From the NCBI RefSeq assembly GCF_000003815.2, contig NC_049990.1, forward strand, positions 7,072,770 through 7,136,769: DNA of 64,000 bases, given 5' to 3'. Both the position numbers and the translations under genes were made by a program. Shown in pieces: positions 20,490 through 39,862 of this stretch (positions are counted from its first letter, which is position 1; every line of letters begins with the position of its first letter). The stretch comes from Branchiostoma floridae (taxonomy: Eukaryota > Chordata > Leptocardii > Amphioxiformes > Branchiostomatidae). The notes beneath the pieces were generated by a model that saw only the letters and a list, made by a program, of their open reading frames with translations, did not search any database and was not told where the DNA came from.

Positions 20490-21810
20490 GTAGGTCACAC
20501 AGCCTTTGGTGCCTGAAAACTGGATTCTGAATTTGCAGCAAGGATAATTATATATAGATGCCATTTTAAGCAGGGTTGTAGGCCAAAAATTATGTACTCA
20601 CTGCGTGCCACGCCTATCTATATATATGGGTCATATAGCTCTGTTGTTGCGAGTATTCGTCAAGCAGATGCATGGTCCAATTCGGTGTTATACACGAATT
20701 TGTAGGCATTCTGCGTCTTTGAAAAGGGGGACTAGGAGAAAAACGTAGAAAATGTCCCCAAACATGTGCTCAACACTATGCTGAACACGACATCTGCTTT
20801 AGACTGTCGATTGAGGGTCTCGTAAGGTTTTTAGCGTACACGTGTTGTTCCTGTACGCTTTTGGCTGTCGGCATATTGCCATATAACGTGACATTATGCA
20901 CCAACCATTGGTCGTTTAATGTAATAGCTTACGTTGTGAATATAGTGGGGGAAGTATTAGGAATCGCGGGTAAAATTGGGGCCTTTCTTTTAGACATAGT
21001 GTTGTTCACTGGCCCGATGAGACAAACCCACGGCGGGGGTCCGGCATTAAATCTTCAAGCAGATGTAGATCTGAATGTAGGTTACTGGTACTCTTGAAGC
21101 TGGCCAGATGTCAATGCAAATCCGCCGTCCATTAAAAAAAAACACTGTCCCATTTTCTCCTCCATCTATTGATTTTTTTTTATTTCACTGGTACTTTTAG
21201 TGATTTCTTTAGTGTGAGTCCAGGCTGGCAGCGCTGTATTAAATGTATGTCATGTATGTCAAGTGTATATGTTTCAATTGTGTCACAACAAGCATATTGT
21301 GCTAATTCTTCCATCTTTGTATTACCAAGTGTTACATAAGCTGTGTGTCATGCATCGTCTTGTGTAGAAAATGTTCAGAAGTGCCACAAAAACAAACCGA
21401 CTCATCATTTACAGATGGCATCGCCCCGCGCTGGAATCGCCCCTTGTGTCAAGCGGCATAATTCAAATTTAGGGACAGTACGTTAGTTATGTGAGGTGGA
21501 TTGTGACCGGGGTGCCGGAGGAAGGGCGTTCGGATACCCTCATTATTTTGATAAAGCAATAGTATTGTTGATGAAAACCGGTGACGTATTCCAAGCAGAT
21601 GTAGGGTGCATTCCAGTGTTTTAACGTGTATTTCGATTTTCGAGGCATGCGTGTACAGCGTTACCGCTCTTTTACCTTTCCCATAAGAAAACTCGAAGTG
21701 AGACATGGAAAATCATGCATTCCAACAACGGTACCTCCGAAGCATACGCAACATAACGTACAGAGTTAGAACTGCAATGAGGAAGTGTTTCAAAGGAGCT
21801 TGAATGAACT
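20490..21810. other. No supported gene upstream of the MS4A-like gene
   Basis: There is a 79-codon open segment ending at 21097 with a hydrophobic stretch (VVNIVGEVLGIAGKIGAFLL). It begins at a non-ATG codon in the displayed frame and has no clear splice borders. The rest is AT-rich. Confidence 0.4.
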
Positions 21811-22452: not shown

Positions 22453-25400
22453 ATGTGCAGCGGCGGGGATGAGGGTTGCTGCCGGTTCCGCGGCGGATGC
22501 GTCCACTGCCTTGGTTGGACCCTGATCGTGCTCGGCGTCGTTGGCGCCGTCCTGGCCGTAGTCCTGGACGCCTTGTACGCGCAGTACTTCTTTGCACCAA
22601 TCACAATGATCAACGGGCCCATCTGGGGCGGCGTTTTTGTAAGTTTGAACATCCATCTTTAACTCATTTGTAATCGCGATGAACGTTAACATTGTCATTA
22701 GTGCCCTGGAAACCAGACTTTTAGCCAGAGCCGAAAACAACCTTTTCAGCAGCCAAGGCAGGTCTTCCGATGACCTTACATAAGCACACCAGGGATTTGT
22801 CATACAGGGAGAGTAGCTCCTTGACTGCCGAACAGATTCTCTGCCAGCCATGGCTAAGTCTGGTTTCCAGGGTATGGCGATAGCAAGTCCGATCTTAACA
22901 TTATCTAATTTCTTAACATGGAAAAGGAACGACGTAACACTGTCCAACTCCCCTCAAAATCAACCTTTTGTGATGTATTTATGTTCACAAAGTACTAGTA
23001 GTTCTTAACTGAGTGCTTTTGCCACTGCAGGTGATAGTCACCGGAGGACTTGCTGTGTGTAGCGGAAGAAACCCGGAGAAGAAGGGCAAAGTACGTTCTT
23101 TACTTCGACCTTTGAGGGAAGATTCTGAAAGTATTTTGACACAAGTCATGAAATAAAATTAGGGTCTGCTTTGCTGTAACGATAATGATTTTAAGTTATA
23201 AGGCGTATGATAGTTTGTTCATATTTTTTCTTAAATCTAATGAAACAAGTAGTCTTTATATTTTTCAGCTTTTACATATCAGTTTATTTAGATGTTTAAA
23301 ACGAAAAAAAAACAAAAATTAAACTTATAATAAAAAATGTCAAAAATTTTCTATAGCTTGCGAAACCTTCGTCAGGCGTTCACTTTCCACTTCCGCGTTT
23401 CCACTTTCCGAATCTCTACCATCAGTCTGTTCTTACATGTGATTCTTCAGATGTTAACGTTCGTCTGTTCTTTCCCAGATGGTTGCCGCTCTAGTTCTGA
23501 GTATTTTCGCCACCATGGCCGCCATGTGCATCTGGATCTTGGCCCTGCTCGGCATGCTTATAGACGGACCCCAATGTGGATTCTTCCGCAGAGGTCCGGA
23601 TCGATGGTTTAGCGGTTATTTATACAGGTAAGCACGCAAGGGTGCAGTTCTAGCCTGATTAAATCTCGCGTATAGTAGCCCGGCCAACATCCGACCGGCC
23701 TACCTCTATGGGCGGGGCCAGTTACAGCCCCGGACAGCGGAGTGTGTGTTACATAGACAAAGTGTGCAGTTCTAACCTATTTCCAGTTCTTTCTGCCATT
23801 TTCAAAAGTGCTTCACGAAAGCAAAGTCTAGAGGGATTGGACATAAACTTGCACATCCTGTATAATTGTCGAGCAATAAAGTTCATTCTTGCACGAAAGC
23901 TTGGCATGCCGAAGAGCACTTTACTACTGTCCTGCTAGCCATAACACTATGTCGCTCCTTGAAGTCCGCGCGCTTTAATAGGAAACGAACGTAGCCTACC
24001 CCAGCGGTCACTACGGAGGATGGTACTCAGGCCCATGGGCCCGATCCCAAATTTCACATATCGGTGCCCTCTGAGGTGGCAAATTCCCCTTGTGATTTTT
24101 GAATTGTAGAAGGCCTGTGGTATGTGAATAAATACACATGATAGTACAGCAGCCAGCAACAAGATGGCGACCGGAAGCTGTCAGAGTCCAATGATGATGA
24201 CTTCCGTCGCCCATCGCTATCACGAATTTATAATAATTATTTCTCGACAAACATTCACAGTTGGTATGGGTTGGAGGAAGAAGACGATTGGAAAAACATC
24301 GACTGCACACCAGCATATGCACTGCATGCCCTGCTGATCGTCATCGGACTGCTAGAGGTCGCTCTTGCACTGGCCGTGTCCATCATGAGCTGCTGTGGGA
24401 CCTGCTGCGCTCCCCGAAATGAAACCCAGGTGAGTCACGTGATTCGTATGGCGGCACTCAGGTGAGCCACGTGATTCGTATAGCGATACCCAGGTGAGTC
24501 ACGTGATTCGTATAGCGACCCCCAGGTGAGTCACGTGATTCGTATAGCGACACCCAGGTGAGTCACGTGATTCGTATAGCGACCCCCAGGTGAGTCACGT
24601 GATTCGTATAGCGATACCCAGGTGAGTCACGTGTTTCGTATAGCGACACCCAAGTGAGTCACGTGATTCGTATAGCGACCCCCAGGTGAGTCACGTGATT
24701 CGTATAGCGACACCCAGGTGAGTCACGTGATTCGTATAGCGACCCCCAGGTGAGTCACGTGATTCGTCTATCAAAGTGATCTTATGGAGTACAGATGCCG
24801 GGAGGACTAAGCTGAAAAGTATGTGTTTAATTATTACATTTCACAGACAACAATATAACCGATCATGTGGTCATGCAGTAGAGGCTAGCATCCTTGTTGT
24901 CTAACGATGTTAATTGCGGTTATGTCAAGTTCACCAACGTGAAGTTAACATTAAAGCGTTAATGGCCCGCCCGAGGTGAATATGTTTCCATAGGGCCTAG
25001 TCATTTGCTATAACCACCGAATAGATTACCGAGTGAGCGAAGCGGACTAGAGTTATAGTAGGATGCACGGCTAACAGTCTATTGCAATAACAGGTCAGCA
25101 TGTGTCAAAGCTTAACTGTTTCTTTCAGTAGAGGTATTTTTCACGCAGTTATGTTTTCGGTTCGTCTTCCGCCCTTGTCATTTACACAATGTAAGACAAT
25201 GGTCTGTGTTTCCTAATTTACGGGTCAGAAGATTAAAACTTGCCCAAGAATGTCGTTTTTCGTATAAAAGATCGACGTGCAGACCGGATTGTTGTTTCTC
25301 ATCACATACAGGGCGCCGCGTACACGTCAGATGGACAGCAGGTCATCATCATCCAGGGCGGAGGTACGTGTTCAAGGAAGTTTCAATCACATTTTGAAAC

Positions 25401-26102
25401 CTCCATGGTTCGATTAATTCTAACGTTGAGGACTAACACGAGTGGAAAGGACCAGTTCTATAGAAAGAATTTATCCTCAGGACCTTCTTTTTCGGAATTT
25501 TTTTAGAACCTCATCGCAAAAGAACGTTTCCTCTACAAGCACGTTTCCCCTAAAGTTACAAATATACGTGCATTATTTTATGTGTGTAGGAATCGCATGC
25601 AACCCTCGAGTAAATCTTGAGACCCCGAGTATGTTTTCCTTTATCCTTCCTTGACTCATAGAACATAAATCCTCCTTGACATAATTGAAACTAATTTTCT
25701 GTGATAAATCTTTATTTTCGACGTCCAACTTCTACAGCCGGTCCGGGACAGCCATCTCCCCAGCCCGGTCAGAAGCCCTACCCGGTACAGCAATTACCTA
25801 CTGGACAACAGCAGCTATACCCTGGACAGCAACCACCCTACCCGGTACAGCCTTCTCCTGGACAGCAACCACCCTACCCTGGGCAGCCGATCCCCGGACA
25901 GCAGCCGCCCTACCCTGGACAGCAACCATCTTACCCGGTACAGCCAGCCCCAGGACAGCAACCATACCCGGTACAGCAACAGGTGCCCTATCCGGTACAA
26001 CCTCAGATGCAGTACAGTGCCCCTCCGCCAGACCAGAGCGGCGCTGTTCCATCGGCGCCCGCACCAAGCTACGACGACGCTGTGAAGGGCGAGAAGATAT
26101 GA
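22453..26102 (+). CDS. MS4A/CD20-like four-pass membrane protein with PQ-rich repeat tail, 6 exons
   Basis: Exons: 22453-22638, 23031-23090, 23479-23627, 24261-24429, 25312-25363 and 25738-26102. They join in frame to 326 residues. Membrane spans: ~19-38 (LGWTLIVLGVVGAVLAVVL), ~56-73 (PIWGGVFVIVTGGLAV), ~83-109 and ~152-174. The PIWGG-x-F-IVTGGLAV signature in span 2, and its spacing to span 3, resemble the CD20-like (MS4A) family, whose members assemble as membrane complexes that modulate signalling. The N-terminus and the end of span 4 are cysteine-rich (CC pairs, possible palmitoylation sites). The 120-residue tail consists of PGQQPPYP and PYPVQ-type repeats and ends in PSYDDAVKGEKI. The ATG lies 41 bases after an acceptor and is the first in frame. 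Exon 4 ends inside a 32-bp array of duplicated donors. Another tetraspan family is possible; the MS4A call is by motif only. Confidence 0.82.
24427..24767 (+). repeat. 32-bp minisatellite of splice donors with E-box/AP-1 motifs, 11 copies
   Basis: Ten full units and one partial unit follow each other with an exact 32-bp period. Each begins with CAG|GTGAGT, a consensus 5' splice site, and continues CACGTGATTCG. The first unit is the real end of exon 4. Each unit also overlays TGAGTCA (AP-1 core) and TCACGTGA (E-box of the MITF/TFEB type). Unit 2 reads GAGCCACGTG, unit 7 CACGTGTTT, and unit 8 has CAAGTGAGT. Unit ends alternate among gacccc, gacacc and gatacc. Confidence 0.95.
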
Positions 26103-28201: not shown

Positions 28202-31200
28202 ATGGATGTACGGCAAGCCGGAGGAGCCATTCTGCTGATGTTCGCGGCTCTTCTCGCCATGCCGCCGCCGCCCCAGGTCGGCGCCGCTCCCGCTCTGGAC
28301 CCGCAGCAGGAGCTTCGTGCCCTGCGCAGTGAGTATCCGAGGATCGATTATGAATGAAGACCTTTATTGTACATATATACCCACTGGGTTAACGCTAGTT
28401 CACCTTTATCCGTGGGGTGACCTTTATTCGTTGTCTTAAAAAAACAGCACATTAGGAGTATTAAGTCTGCGGACTGTGATTTCAAATTTGCAATATTTTC
28501 AAAATGTTCCGATTTGAAACCACCGTCGGTCGACTTCATATCCCTAAATACGTTTTTTCTTACAAACAACGAATATAGGTTACCCTTGGATAAAGGTGAA
28601 CCAGTGCTAAGTACAGGTCGCAACAAAATGATAGTTGACAAATACATGAAATATCTAAAATGTCAACTTACACATTACTGTAAATGCAGAAATATTCGCG
28701 GTGGATTTATTTTCGCGGTTTTCGCGTTGGCCATTTCACCGCGAATTTAAAGCCACCGCGAACATTCCAGGGCATTAATATACCAGTACTACAATACATG
28801 GTGCTACCGCGAAATTAAAACCACCATGAAAAGTCCTTTTCCCGCTACCGAGAAATTAAATCCTCGCGAATTTAAATGTATTTGTGTGTGATTCCAGACT
28901 AGGTGTTTTCATGCACTGTTGTATGTAAGGTTAACGCTATGCTAGTTCACTTTTATTCGCGGCTTTTTTTCGGCAAGAGTCCATTTGGCAAAAGACTAAA
29001 CCAACATTTCTTGTAAAAACATCGAATATAGGTAACAACCGAGGATAAAGCTGAACTAGGGTTAGCATACATTCGCATAATTCCACCAGGTGCCAGGTTA
29101 TACCGCCACTTCAAAAAAAACAACGTTGCTATAGAGGCATTCTCAAGATTGTCTTCAACACCTAAATATCTGAATTGTATTACATTTAGGATATTTAACA
29201 TAATCAAAATAATCTTGGGAAGACCTCTATACTAACGTTGGCACCTGGTGGAATTATGATAGCCGATGTTATCTGGTGGTACGTTTTATAGCAATGTGTT
29301 TTAGAGATATCTGTCAGAACACACGTGGCTATCAGCAAGATCGTGAATATCTCATGGTGACAGAAAGTCACCGACATGTCGACTGAGCAAAACCGGTCTG
29401 TCATCACCCTGACCAGGACAATACTGGAAAACTCAGTCACGTTTGTGATCGCATTCTTCACATTGCAGCAGCGACACCTAGCTGCAGTGCGAAGCACCAG
29501 TCATCTACATCTACATCTACATCTACATAGGGGTACCCCAAAATGGCCCCGCATGGGGCATCCTAGGGGAAGGGGGGGGGGGTGATTACACCGGCGACTG
29601 AGAGCTGCACTGTCCCCGTAGAGAGCCTACACTAACTACCGTAGGCTGTGCCACAACTAGATTGGATTCCAGGTTAATAATTAAGTGGCGTCGATTGCTC
29701 AGTGGTAAGGTTAGCTAGAAGATAGGGATCCATAGGTCACGAGTTGTATAACTATATGTCCTAACTGATTGCAGAACTACACATTCTGAAATAACTCTGT
29801 TGCTGTTCTTCCCCGTGGACAGATCTTATATCAAAGGTGGACAAAGAAATGGCCGGAGTGGGGCGCACAGCTAAAACATTGGACATGATACTGACTGACA
29901 TGGAATCGCGGTTCGATGGGCTAATCCGTGAGTCATACATGTTCTTACTTTTTCTTCATGATCAGAAATAACATTTTAAGGCTTCCATCAAGATGGCAAT
30001 GTCGTCTTCTACTTAGGGCTTTGAATATAATGGTTCTTGGTTCGAATCCGTTGCAGGCCCTGATTTTGTATCCCTAGGAAATTTCAAAGGCAAGTTACAC
30101 TTATGTTCTCATCCGACTCAGGTAAAAATGAGTAAAATGTACTTAAGTTCGGTTGCTTAGGTAAGTTATATTGGATGGGTGGTAAAGATGGAGGTCATGT
30201 GCTTGAGGAGAGCCACACTTCGAGCACTTTAAAAAACCCACCACTTATCGAAAAAGTAGGGGTCTTTCCGGTGTGACGCCTCACGGCTCGGTCTTACACA
30301 TAGGCAGCTTGTAGTTATTGTCCAAAACTGGTGTAGCCCGGAATCCAGCATGGAATATGAGAACTATCATGTGTAACTTCGGTACAATATTTGTGTAACC
30401 AACTTTCTGGATATTCAATCACAAAGTTCTTTATGCACAACCATGGAAATTATTAAGAGCCAACGTTTTGATGACCATCTCTCATCTGTCACCTGACCGC
30501 TCTTAATAAATTTCATGGTTTTGAATAAAGAACTTTGTGATTAAGTATTTTACCAACCTGATGAAATTATTTTTACTTAACTTTTTGGATACTTTGTGAC
30601 AATCTGACAGAAAACGTGACACGCCTGGAGCAGCAGCGTGATGAGCTGTCTGACAGTTGTGGCGCGCTCCCGGCGGAAGACGGCGTCACTGCAGGGGTGA
30701 CAGCAAGTTCAGCGACAACAGCGGAAGGACCGCGTGTCAAAGGTACGTTACTACAACAAAATCTGTTTAACGTTACTAACGTTATATAATTTTGCGAAAT
30801 CATGCCTTTAGTGCCAATTGCCGCGCCGGGGCAAAAATTGTCTTTGTTGCAAGCCACCGGCTTTTTTCTTTGACAAGATACGGGTTATATTCTGATGATG
30901 AAAAGTGTTCTAATTTAGTTCTAGACTGCTGACGTGACAGGTAACAATCAGACAATCAGCAAGTAATACGAACTCGCTCTCTATGAGAAAATTGCGTACT
31001 CTTGAAAATTAAACGTTTACCAGAAATTCTCCATCCTCCGAATAACATATTAGTATATCGGATGTCCTGTACCTAGGACAGACGATAATAGATTACGAAG
31101 TGCAATGTACAAAGAGTGCGCTATTAAATCATTCCCAATTTTCTCTAATTTTTCTCAGACTGTGAAGAGCTGCTGCCGTACGGGTTGACCCAAAGCGGCG

Positions 31201-32611: not shown

Positions 32612-32836
32612 GCCTCTACCAGGCTCCACAGGTCGCTGCAAAATAGTAGAAATTGGCCAAGAAATAAGACAGAAACCCGTCAGGAGAGTTAGATGGCTCA
32701 GGAGAACACTTGTGACCTTAGGTCGCAAACTGTACTCCTCGGCCATTCAACTCCTCGAGGTCTTGCGTATTTTTTGTCTTATTTGGCCAATTTCTACTAT
32801 CATTGCGGCGACTTGTGGAGCCTGGTAGAGGCTGAC
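32608..32836. mobile_element. Foldback MITE, GCCTCTACCAGGCTCCACA termini
   Basis: Arms of about 68 bp: AGCCTCTACCAGGCTCCACA..AGTAGAAATTGGCCAA, with the reverse complement at the right end. It abuts or overlaps the previous MITE by a few bases. Confidence 0.9.
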
Positions 32837-33319
32837 TGTCCATCACAGTTAGCTGATCTACCAATGAGATGCTGCAAATTATTCGATGCGACCAATGAGA
32901 TGGTGACTACATGTCCGTCATATATTTGAATTTCTACTAGAACTATACTACTATTATCGTAGAGTTGAACTTATATAGGCTGGGTTTACACACGCGTTTG
33001 AGAGTCGATTTCCAGCCGATCAGGGACTTGGAGTCGACTCCGAAAACTCGTGTGTCAACCCAGCAACATTGTCACCATGTACAGTAAGTGCATCTTTACT
33101 AGATTGCTTTGAACAACGCGTGGGGTCAGATGTACAAATGTTAGGTGTGACAGTATAGTCGGTGGCTTGATGATTCTTGATCTAAAATGCTTCGACTGTC
33201 GCCAAAACTTGACAGAAGTTTTCTTCTCTCTGTCACGAGTTTATTCTCCAATGTTGTACACATCAGCGGTTTGTAAAGAAAATATTGAATAGACACTGTC
33301 TCAGTAAAAAAACCAAGCC
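32837..33319. other. Intergenic between convergent genes
   Basis: No exon or repeat of note. The fibrinogen-domain gene and the peptide gene converge here. Confidence 0.5.
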
Positions 33320-33325
33320 TTTATT
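33320..33325 (-). terminator. Candidate polyadenylation signal of the six-cysteine peptide gene
   Basis: Minus-strand AATAAA about 395 bases downstream of the stop codon. Confidence 0.5.
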
Positions 33326-33717: not shown

Positions 33718-35228
33718 TCAGTTACAGACATACCGCATGCAGCAGCCGGAGGAGTGGTGGCATCCCTGTAATGGGCCTAGGTTACACACGAAGTTGTACC
33801 TGCAGAAGATAGAACAGGAAAAAATATAGTCAGAAAAAAACAAGGGCATTGAGAAGAAGACGACGAATAAGATCATTCTCCTGCGCAGAGTGGACCAAGG
33901 TCGTCTCAAAACTCCTCTCATGTTTTCTTTTAAGACGACGTTGGTCCCCTCTGCGTAGGAGAAGGAATGGGTTCCACCTTCCAATATCTTTATTAAGACA
34001 CAGTGGATTTAACTATATTATCTCCAAAGGGCTGTGAAACCTGCATGTAGGCTTCCATCAATGCTGATTTGGTACTACTGTAGGTACAAATGCGACTGGA
34101 AGCGGACAAAAGCTAATATGGTTTCCATCTGGGTGGTTATAAGTGGCCACCTTACACTGACAGGAACGTCAGGGCGCCATACATTATACAGATACAGGGT
34201 TTGGCTCAGTGTTCTACTTCTAGGAGTAACGTATTTTGTGAAAGTTTCGTTACGTTTTTCTAGTGCTTCGCGCACTTCTTTAGGACGAAAAACTTACCAT
34301 AGGCCTTCCTGCGGCTTTCGTAGCGAAGAGATAAAAATGTACACTACAAGAAAGTCGTATAAAAGCATCAAAAACGCTTCTAAGAGGTAGACTGACCCGC
34401 AGCCTCCATTGTTGAAGAGGAATCCCCGCTTCACCAGGGAGTGCGGCTCGGGAGACTCCGCCAGGGAACGGCCCTCGGTCACGGAGGCTGTGGGGACAAG
34501 AGAGGGGTGAGTGAATTTGTGACTCAGTGGTACCGTCTACTCTCCAAGCAGTGGCTAGGCTCCGCGGTTGTTGTTTTTAACTATTTTAGGCCTTTTATTA
34601 TCGGGCTTTCTATTTTTGCGTCCGCGAGACATAAAAAGACGGTACCAAATAGAAAACCCAATAAAAACGCCAGAAACAGTCGGAGCCTAACCTCTACTTG
34701 CAATTGGAATATATCTTTCGGGGTTTACGTTTACATCTTCCAAGGCTCGTAAACCAGCACACAGTATATATATCATACATTTGTTTTTTGTACATACAAA
34801 AACAGTGTCAACGGTATGCACCAAAATGAGCAATATAAGGTGTCATAAGGCATGATCGGTCAATGCAACCTAAACGAGCAATAATGACTGGTGATTATGA
34901 TAAAGCCATTGGTCAGCGTCATATGTCTATATGATGATTCTAAACCATGCAAAAGGCCTAGGGTGGAAATAATTTAAAGAATTTACTATTGTAAAAAAAT
35001 TGTCGCATGCGCATGAAAACACATTTTTTTTACACCGAATCTCTTTCAAGTGCTCCGCGTGCTTTTAAACTGTTAATCTCAATTTCTTAACATACATACA
35101 TGACTAATTAGGTGGAAATAGGATGGGTATAGAACGGGGCCCTTAAGTATAGAACAGTCCGCAAAGGAATTTGAACACCTACCCAGAACCACGCAGGCGA
35201 GCAGTGCGAAGATGAACGCTGTCTTCAT
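33718..35228 (-). CDS. Small secreted six-cysteine prepropeptide, 3 exons
   Basis: Exons on the minus strand: 35228-35183, 34487-34397 and 33799-33718. The 219 nt join in frame to 72 residues. Residues 1-16 (MKTAFIFALLACVVLA) are a clean signal peptide. Residues 17-34 are an acidic, Ser/Pro-rich propeptide ending SLV, then Lys35-Arg36. The predicted mature peptide is residues 37-72, starting GFLFNNGGC, with cysteines at 45, 51, 59, 65, 66 and 71 (C-x5-C-x7-C-x5-CC-x4-C). All splice sites are GT-AG with pyrimidine-rich acceptors. A TATAAAAG box lies ~105 bases upstream of the ATG and AATAAA follows the stop. This prepropeptide plan is shared by antimicrobial peptides, neuropeptides and other secreted disulfide-rich peptides. 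I do not recognise the family, and the cysteine order differs from vertebrate alpha/beta-defensins and from the classic knottin (CC at positions 3-4). Function unknown. Confidence 0.8.
33879..33961. repeat. Foldback element in intron 2 of the peptide gene
   Basis: CTCCTGCGCAGAGTGGACCA..TCGTCT and the inverted CTCCTACGCAGAGGGGACCA..TCGTCTT face each other across ~15 bases. A single related end (CTCCTACGCAGAGGAACCAC) occurs at about 40783. Confidence 0.8.
34529..34705. repeat. Foldback element in intron 1 of the peptide gene
   Basis: CTAGGCTCCG..TTTCTATTT on the left is matched in reverse by AAATAGAAA..CGGAGCCTA on the right. ACCGTCTACTCTCC precedes the left arm and GGTACC words lie inside. 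Confidence 0.6.
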
Positions 35229-35333
35229 GTTGCCGGTGAAGTCTTGATACTGTCAGCAGGTGACTGGGTCTGTAATGTATGGTAGGTAGTTGCGTCTCTC
35301 AGAACGACTGAAGACCGTTGTGAGTTGGTCCGG

Positions 35334-36721: not shown

Positions 36722-39862
<3,141 letters not shown>

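Follow-up and report, generated by a model that had tools for sequence, protein, structure and literature searches.

Conotoxin precursors are built of a signal part and a pro part. Conotoxin framework XXIII of the K superfamily, to which Im23a belongs, is described as having the cysteine order C-C-C-CC-C, and the solved structure of Im23a is reported as a helical hairpin with acidic surface residues, in which the cysteines pair I-II, III-IV and V-VI (PMC4278219). One spider toxin framework of the inhibitor cystine knot (ICK) kind is given as C-x6-C-x6-CC-x4-C-x6-C (PMC6409621). The big defensin of lancelets is described as a mature protein of 117 residues whose C-terminal part holds six cysteines, in the arrangement C-x6-C-x3-C-x13(14)-C-x4-CC (PMC10608444). 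The strongylocins of sea urchins are reported to have six cysteines and a short propeptide, with a cysteine pattern that is reportedly unlike those of other antimicrobial peptides; they are described as cationic, with bromotryptophan and a mass of 5.6-5.8 kDa (PMC4805251, PMC4881601, PMC2866484). The gene considered here, which is predicted to encode a short six-cysteine peptide, can be compared with each of these systems. It lies on the minus strand of a Branchiostoma floridae window, by which we mean the whole stretch of 64,000 nucleotides that was analysed (G000:C12:7072770-7136769).

The original prediction of a three-exon, in-frame prepropeptide gene was re-derived at the same coordinates, with GT-AG exons at 35228-35183, 34487-34397 and 33799-33718, an intact frame and a spliced coding length of 219 nt, corresponding to 72 amino acids and a TGA at the predicted end. 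Splice sites were scored with generic metazoan matrices, and their ranks refer to the 7534 AGs and 7952 GTs present on both strands of the window. The coding part of exon 1 comprises the ATG and most of the putative signal peptide (MKTAFIFALLACVVL), and is followed by a GTAGGT donor within the top 3.7% of GTs. Exon 2 carries the end of the signal peptide, the pro-segment, the Lys-Arg site and the start of the mature peptide up to cysteine 1; its acceptor, CCCCACAG, ranks in the top 0.73% of AGs and its donor, GTCAGT, which has an unusual C at +3, in the top 3.1% of GTs. Exon 3 encodes cysteines 2-6 and the TGA, and its acceptor, TTCTGCAG, belongs to the top 0.12% of AGs. The acceptors of exons 2 and 3 (scores of 6.3 and 9.1) are thus both within the top 0.8% of the window, whereas the two donors are of moderate strength only (2.30 and 2.45). 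No cassette exon passed in either intron at an acceptor score of 5 and a donor score of 2. A rival GTATGT donor is located inside exon 3, at 33733, with a score of 2.62 that exceeds those of both used donors, and a fourth exon is therefore possible. The gene would then be real, but exon 3 would end at this donor and a further exon would provide the C terminus, so that the last cysteine and the framework would differ. Among the acceptors scoring at least 3 within ~3.4 kb, two extend the frame with a cysteine, at 32635 (5.4) and at 31072 (4.9), and a candidate exon 4 starting from 32635, with a GC3 of 0.75, would add 24 residues and one cysteine. This acceptor is nevertheless weaker than the two used ones, both candidates are located past both AATAAA signals described below, and reading through the internal donor yields CC-x4-C, a motif frequent in disulfide-rich peptides; we consider the four-exon structure unlikely.

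The TATA box upstream and the AATAAA downstream, which had also been predicted, were recovered. The TATA box TATAAAAG occupies 35341-35334 on the minus strand, and an initiator-like TCAGTC is found at 35306-35311 on the same strand, the A of which (35309) would be the transcription start (+1), 32 nt from the first T of TATAAAAG. Of the 20 TATA-consensus matches on this strand within the window, 1 is accompanied by an initiator at TATA-like spacing; for both strands of 264 kb, the figure is 6 of 173. An AATAAA polyadenylation signal, recognised from the sequence only, starts at 33325 (33325-33320, minus strand) and is followed by a T-rich stretch, with a second AATAAA on the same strand starting further downstream at 33245.

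The coding composition of the gene is marked, with G or C at the third position of 57 of the 73 codons, stop included (GC3 of 0.78), in a gene whose introns have 39% and 42% GC. High GC3 is present in each exon (12/15, 25/30 and 20/28), and G or C occupies 30 of the 40 fourfold sites. For comparison, GC3 reaches 0.86 and 0.77 in parts of two other exons within the window, one for Fibrinogen_C and one for DNA polymerase B. This measure was not among the criteria of a chain enumeration, which required two or three exons, a start resembling a signal peptide, a dibasic site and six cysteines or more. On both strands of the window and of its flanks (200 kb, giving 264 kb in all), the sole locus obtained was that of the gene, with two chains, the second being a variant that shares exon 1 and the terminal portion of the last exon; no comparable chain was found in 12 shuffles or in 700 order-3 random 64-kb sequences. 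When the splice thresholds were relaxed and longer introns admitted, this locus was again the only one obtained from the real 264 kb, with two last exons, while 21 last exons passed in 300 random sequences, none of them with a GC3 of at least 0.75. Because the enumeration criteria were set once the gene was known, these counts are to be read as support and not as a clean test, and the Markov sequences do not reproduce the GC-rich patches of real DNA. It could be argued from this post hoc choice, and from the 21 last exons that random sequence delivers at looser thresholds, that at this locus open frames and splice-like sites have come together by chance, or that the gene has decayed. The third-position composition, the strong acceptors, the TATA box with its initiator, the intact frame, the lack of an equal in 264 kb and the absence of a GC3 of at least 0.75 among the random passes all speak against this explanation, which we regard as highly improbable. 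The locus is very probably a real gene, and these data support the prediction that the prepropeptide gene is intact and has a putative TATA promoter of its own.

All the features of a cysteine-rich secreted prepropeptide, namely a signal, a pro-segment, a dibasic site and a Cys-rich C-terminal peptide, are found in one frame. The 72-residue precursor begins with a hydrophobic stretch (MKTAFIFALLACVVLA), followed by a short pro-segment whose last residues are SLVKR and then by GFLFNNGGCGYNFVCNLGPLQGCHHSSGCCMRYVCN; at the level of the sequence, the signal peptide was judged by a hydrophobicity rule and cleavage by eye. The mature peptide would consist of the 36 amino acids after Lys35-Arg36, with the C terminus ...YVCN, and its cysteines are arranged exactly as first written, C-x5-C-x7-C-x5-CC-x4-C. 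It contains one Arg, no Lys, no Asp or Glu, two His and no Trp, with a computed net charge of +1, a pI of 7.8 and a mass of 3.9 kDa in the reduced form, more exactly 3873.4 Da, from which three disulfides would take ~6 Da. The propeptide, which had been called acidic, is not clearly so: with Lys-Arg included, its net charge is 0 if counted from residue 17 or +1 if counted from residue 23, and by letter count the longer version without Lys-Arg has -2. We propose that the TATA-initiator promoter would drive a gene for a secreted precursor, which would enter the secretory pathway and lose ~16-22 residues to signal peptidase. Cleavage after Lys35-Arg36 by a furin/PC-type prohormone convertase would then release the 36-residue peptide, which may fold into a compact mini-protein held by three disulfides and resistant to proteases. 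Signal removal, the Lys-Arg cut and release probably take place in this manner, although strong furin cleavage is not assured since the P4 residue of the site is Leu and not Arg.

Relatives were sought in the B. floridae genome itself (513 Mb in 431 contigs) and in several libraries. The 72-residue protein, the exon 2 part and the exon 3 part each retrieved the gene only, in searches that would miss diverged paralogs because just one or two candidates were scored in each. Neither the precursor nor the mature peptide exceeded a Pfam cut-off, the sub-threshold matches being DUF7548 with precursor residues 4-23 (11.9 bits against a cut-off of 27) and Toxin_12 with mature residues 20-36 (11.2 bits, E 0.61, against a cut-off of 21). 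The bacterial and archaeal NCBIfam library gave no match, and the sequences of solved structures gave none up to E 10 with either the precursor or the mature peptide. Rfam gave no match at gathering thresholds. In the literature searched, no paper contained any of six fragments of the peptide, and among the papers listed no title or opening of an abstract named the gene. The earlier remark that the cysteine order matched no recognised family is consistent with these results, as Pfam, NCBIfam and the solved-structure sequences all left the framework unassigned. Judged by these sequence comparisons, the peptide is an orphan within its own genome, Pfam, NCBIfam and the solved structures. In a DNA search of the genome with the whole gene, at least 69 matches were obtained (40 of 516 candidates scored), that is, the gene and 68 others, which all fall within query positions 517-703 or 1259-1359, both intronic. 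Each intron contains one repeat (34526-34712 and 33870-33970) with tens of partial copies in the genome, some matching both strands, and the repeat at 34526-34712 has inverted arms inside. Copies on both strands are as in palindromic mobile repeats, and the two repeats are likely to be remnants of MITE-type mobile elements.

Framework XXIII shares the order C-C-C-CC-C with the lancelet peptide, a likeness that concerns the order as described for these conotoxins, and since order alone is not homology, it does not show membership. The acidic surface residues reported for Im23a, a toxin from another phylum, also contrast with a lancelet peptide devoid of Asp and Glu. With respect to the published ICK framework, cysteines 2-6 of the lancelet peptide (C-x7-C-x5-CC-x4-C) are spaced near ICK cysteines I-V, but ICK cysteine VI is absent and an extra N-terminal cysteine is present. 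The lancelet order also differs from the ICK order C-C-CC-C-C, in which III and IV are adjacent, and the spacing of cysteines 2-6 does not show that the peptide is a knottin. Because cysteines 2-6 resemble knottin I-V in spacing, VI is missing and the additional cysteine stands five residues earlier, a permuted knot is conceivable. It can be speculated that we are dealing with a natural circular permutant of the ICK, open-chained and belonging to a lancelet-restricted family, in which the N-terminal cysteine replaces knottin VI and the pairs are C2-C5, C3-C6 and C4-C1; we give this arrangement very little credence. If the gene is real, its cysteine layout would make it possible to check whether knot folds tolerate permutation in nature.

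When Toxin_12, a Pfam family of knottins, was searched in the lancelet genome (27 candidates scored), five matches were obtained up to E 10, one of them over the cut-off, and the six-cysteine locus was not among them; in control searches, matches appeared in one of 14 bacterial-type genomes, none over the cut-off. Chain enumeration at the five loci, on both strands, gave no chain. The match over the cut-off (L043, positions 1501-1566; G000:C16:774045-774110, minus strand; 24.3 bits, E 0.041) is a frame containing CAGIGGTCKSNDDCCSRSECAL, with the ICK-like pattern C-x6-C-x5-CC-x4-C. A strong GTAAGT donor lies 85 bases past the match start, and no acceptor above a score of 4 precedes it; on its sequence, this is possibly a knottin-type gene elsewhere in the genome. 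A second ICK-like frame, C-x5-CC-x4-C-x7-C, was observed below the cut-off (L046, positions 1501-1572; G000:C10:8069839-8069910, plus strand; 17.2 bits, E 6.6). Both were considered as relatives of the six-cysteine peptide and rejected, as neither resembles it.

The original prediction had also suggested a host-defence or hormone-like peptide. The charge of the mature peptide does not favour the host-defence identity, given that cationic antimicrobial peptides are clearly positive. A defensin-like cationic antimicrobial that permeabilises microbial membranes would agree with the prepropeptide layout and the six cysteines, and lancelets are described as possessing both big defensin and mBjAMP1 (PMC10608444). 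We nevertheless consider such a peptide doubtful at a net charge of +1 and a pI of 7.8. Like the lancelet big defensin as described, the peptide would be a secreted lancelet product with six cysteines, but neither the reported spacing nor the 117-residue length is found in its 36 residues. The strongylocins, compared here by description, likewise come from a deuterostome and combine six cysteines with a short propeptide, as in the lancelet gene; they are reported to be cationic, larger and brominated at tryptophan, whereas the lancelet peptide is near neutral, lighter and lacks Trp. The mytimycins of mussels, with 10-14 cysteines according to the source (PMC8004829), were set aside as no match.

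The explanation that we favour, by a modest degree of confidence, is that a functional gene, of which the genome yielded one copy, encodes a secreted three-disulfide peptide acting as a lineage-restricted effector. The mature peptide would act extracellularly on one specific target, which may be a microbial component, an enzyme, a channel or a receptor. Its near-neutral charge favours specific binding over charge-based lysis, and the most likely mode of action would therefore be that of an effector that binds specifically and does not lyse membranes by charge. As regards the role itself, a defence-type effector can be put forward tentatively, and an enzyme inhibitor or some other role may be envisaged with some reserve. 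A secreted signalling peptide of the hormone or neuropeptide kind, freed by the Lys-Arg cut to engage a receptor, would fit the dibasic site with its single short mature peptide, the near-neutral charge and the single locus in the genome; the C terminus carries no amidation signal, the libraries returned no match (in Pfam, none over cut-off), and this role appears rather unlikely. The product would be an orphan secreted disulfide-rich peptide of a broadly known kind, the function of which we infer only. If the gene is real, it adds one more secreted disulfide-rich peptide to a cephalochordate genome, and short lineage-restricted secreted peptides of this sort are easily overlooked by homology-based annotation.

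The position of the gene beside fibrinogen-domain and MS4A-like genes had been regarded as suggestive. The Fibrinogen_C neighbour was confirmed, but adjacency to it is weak evidence because the genome holds at least 173 matches to Fibrinogen_C (PF00147), and Pfam at E 0.01 assigned no family to the three frames picked as likely MS4A-like pieces (20723-21097, 24145-24465 and 25695-26102), a result that speaks neither for nor against that label. Among the matches listed, many Fibrinogen_C domains cluster on contigs C10, C14 and C15; going by these domain matches, there is a large expansion of fibrinogen-domain genes in this genome. A scan of the window for the ITAM pattern gave scattered matches, which were taken as chance. 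At 36722-39862, on the plus strand, the window contains an EBP/EXPERA-like gene, with two of its four exon pieces over the Pfam cut-off for EBP. Within it, an array at 37825-39029 repeats the 3' part of one exon together with its GT donor, so that, counting the original, 11 exon-like segments of nearly identical sequence follow one another, mostly at a spacing of 108 bp; this array (37.8-39.0 kb) had been considered as a TCR-zeta-like segment, which was ruled out by its derivation from the exon of the EBP/EXPERA-like gene.
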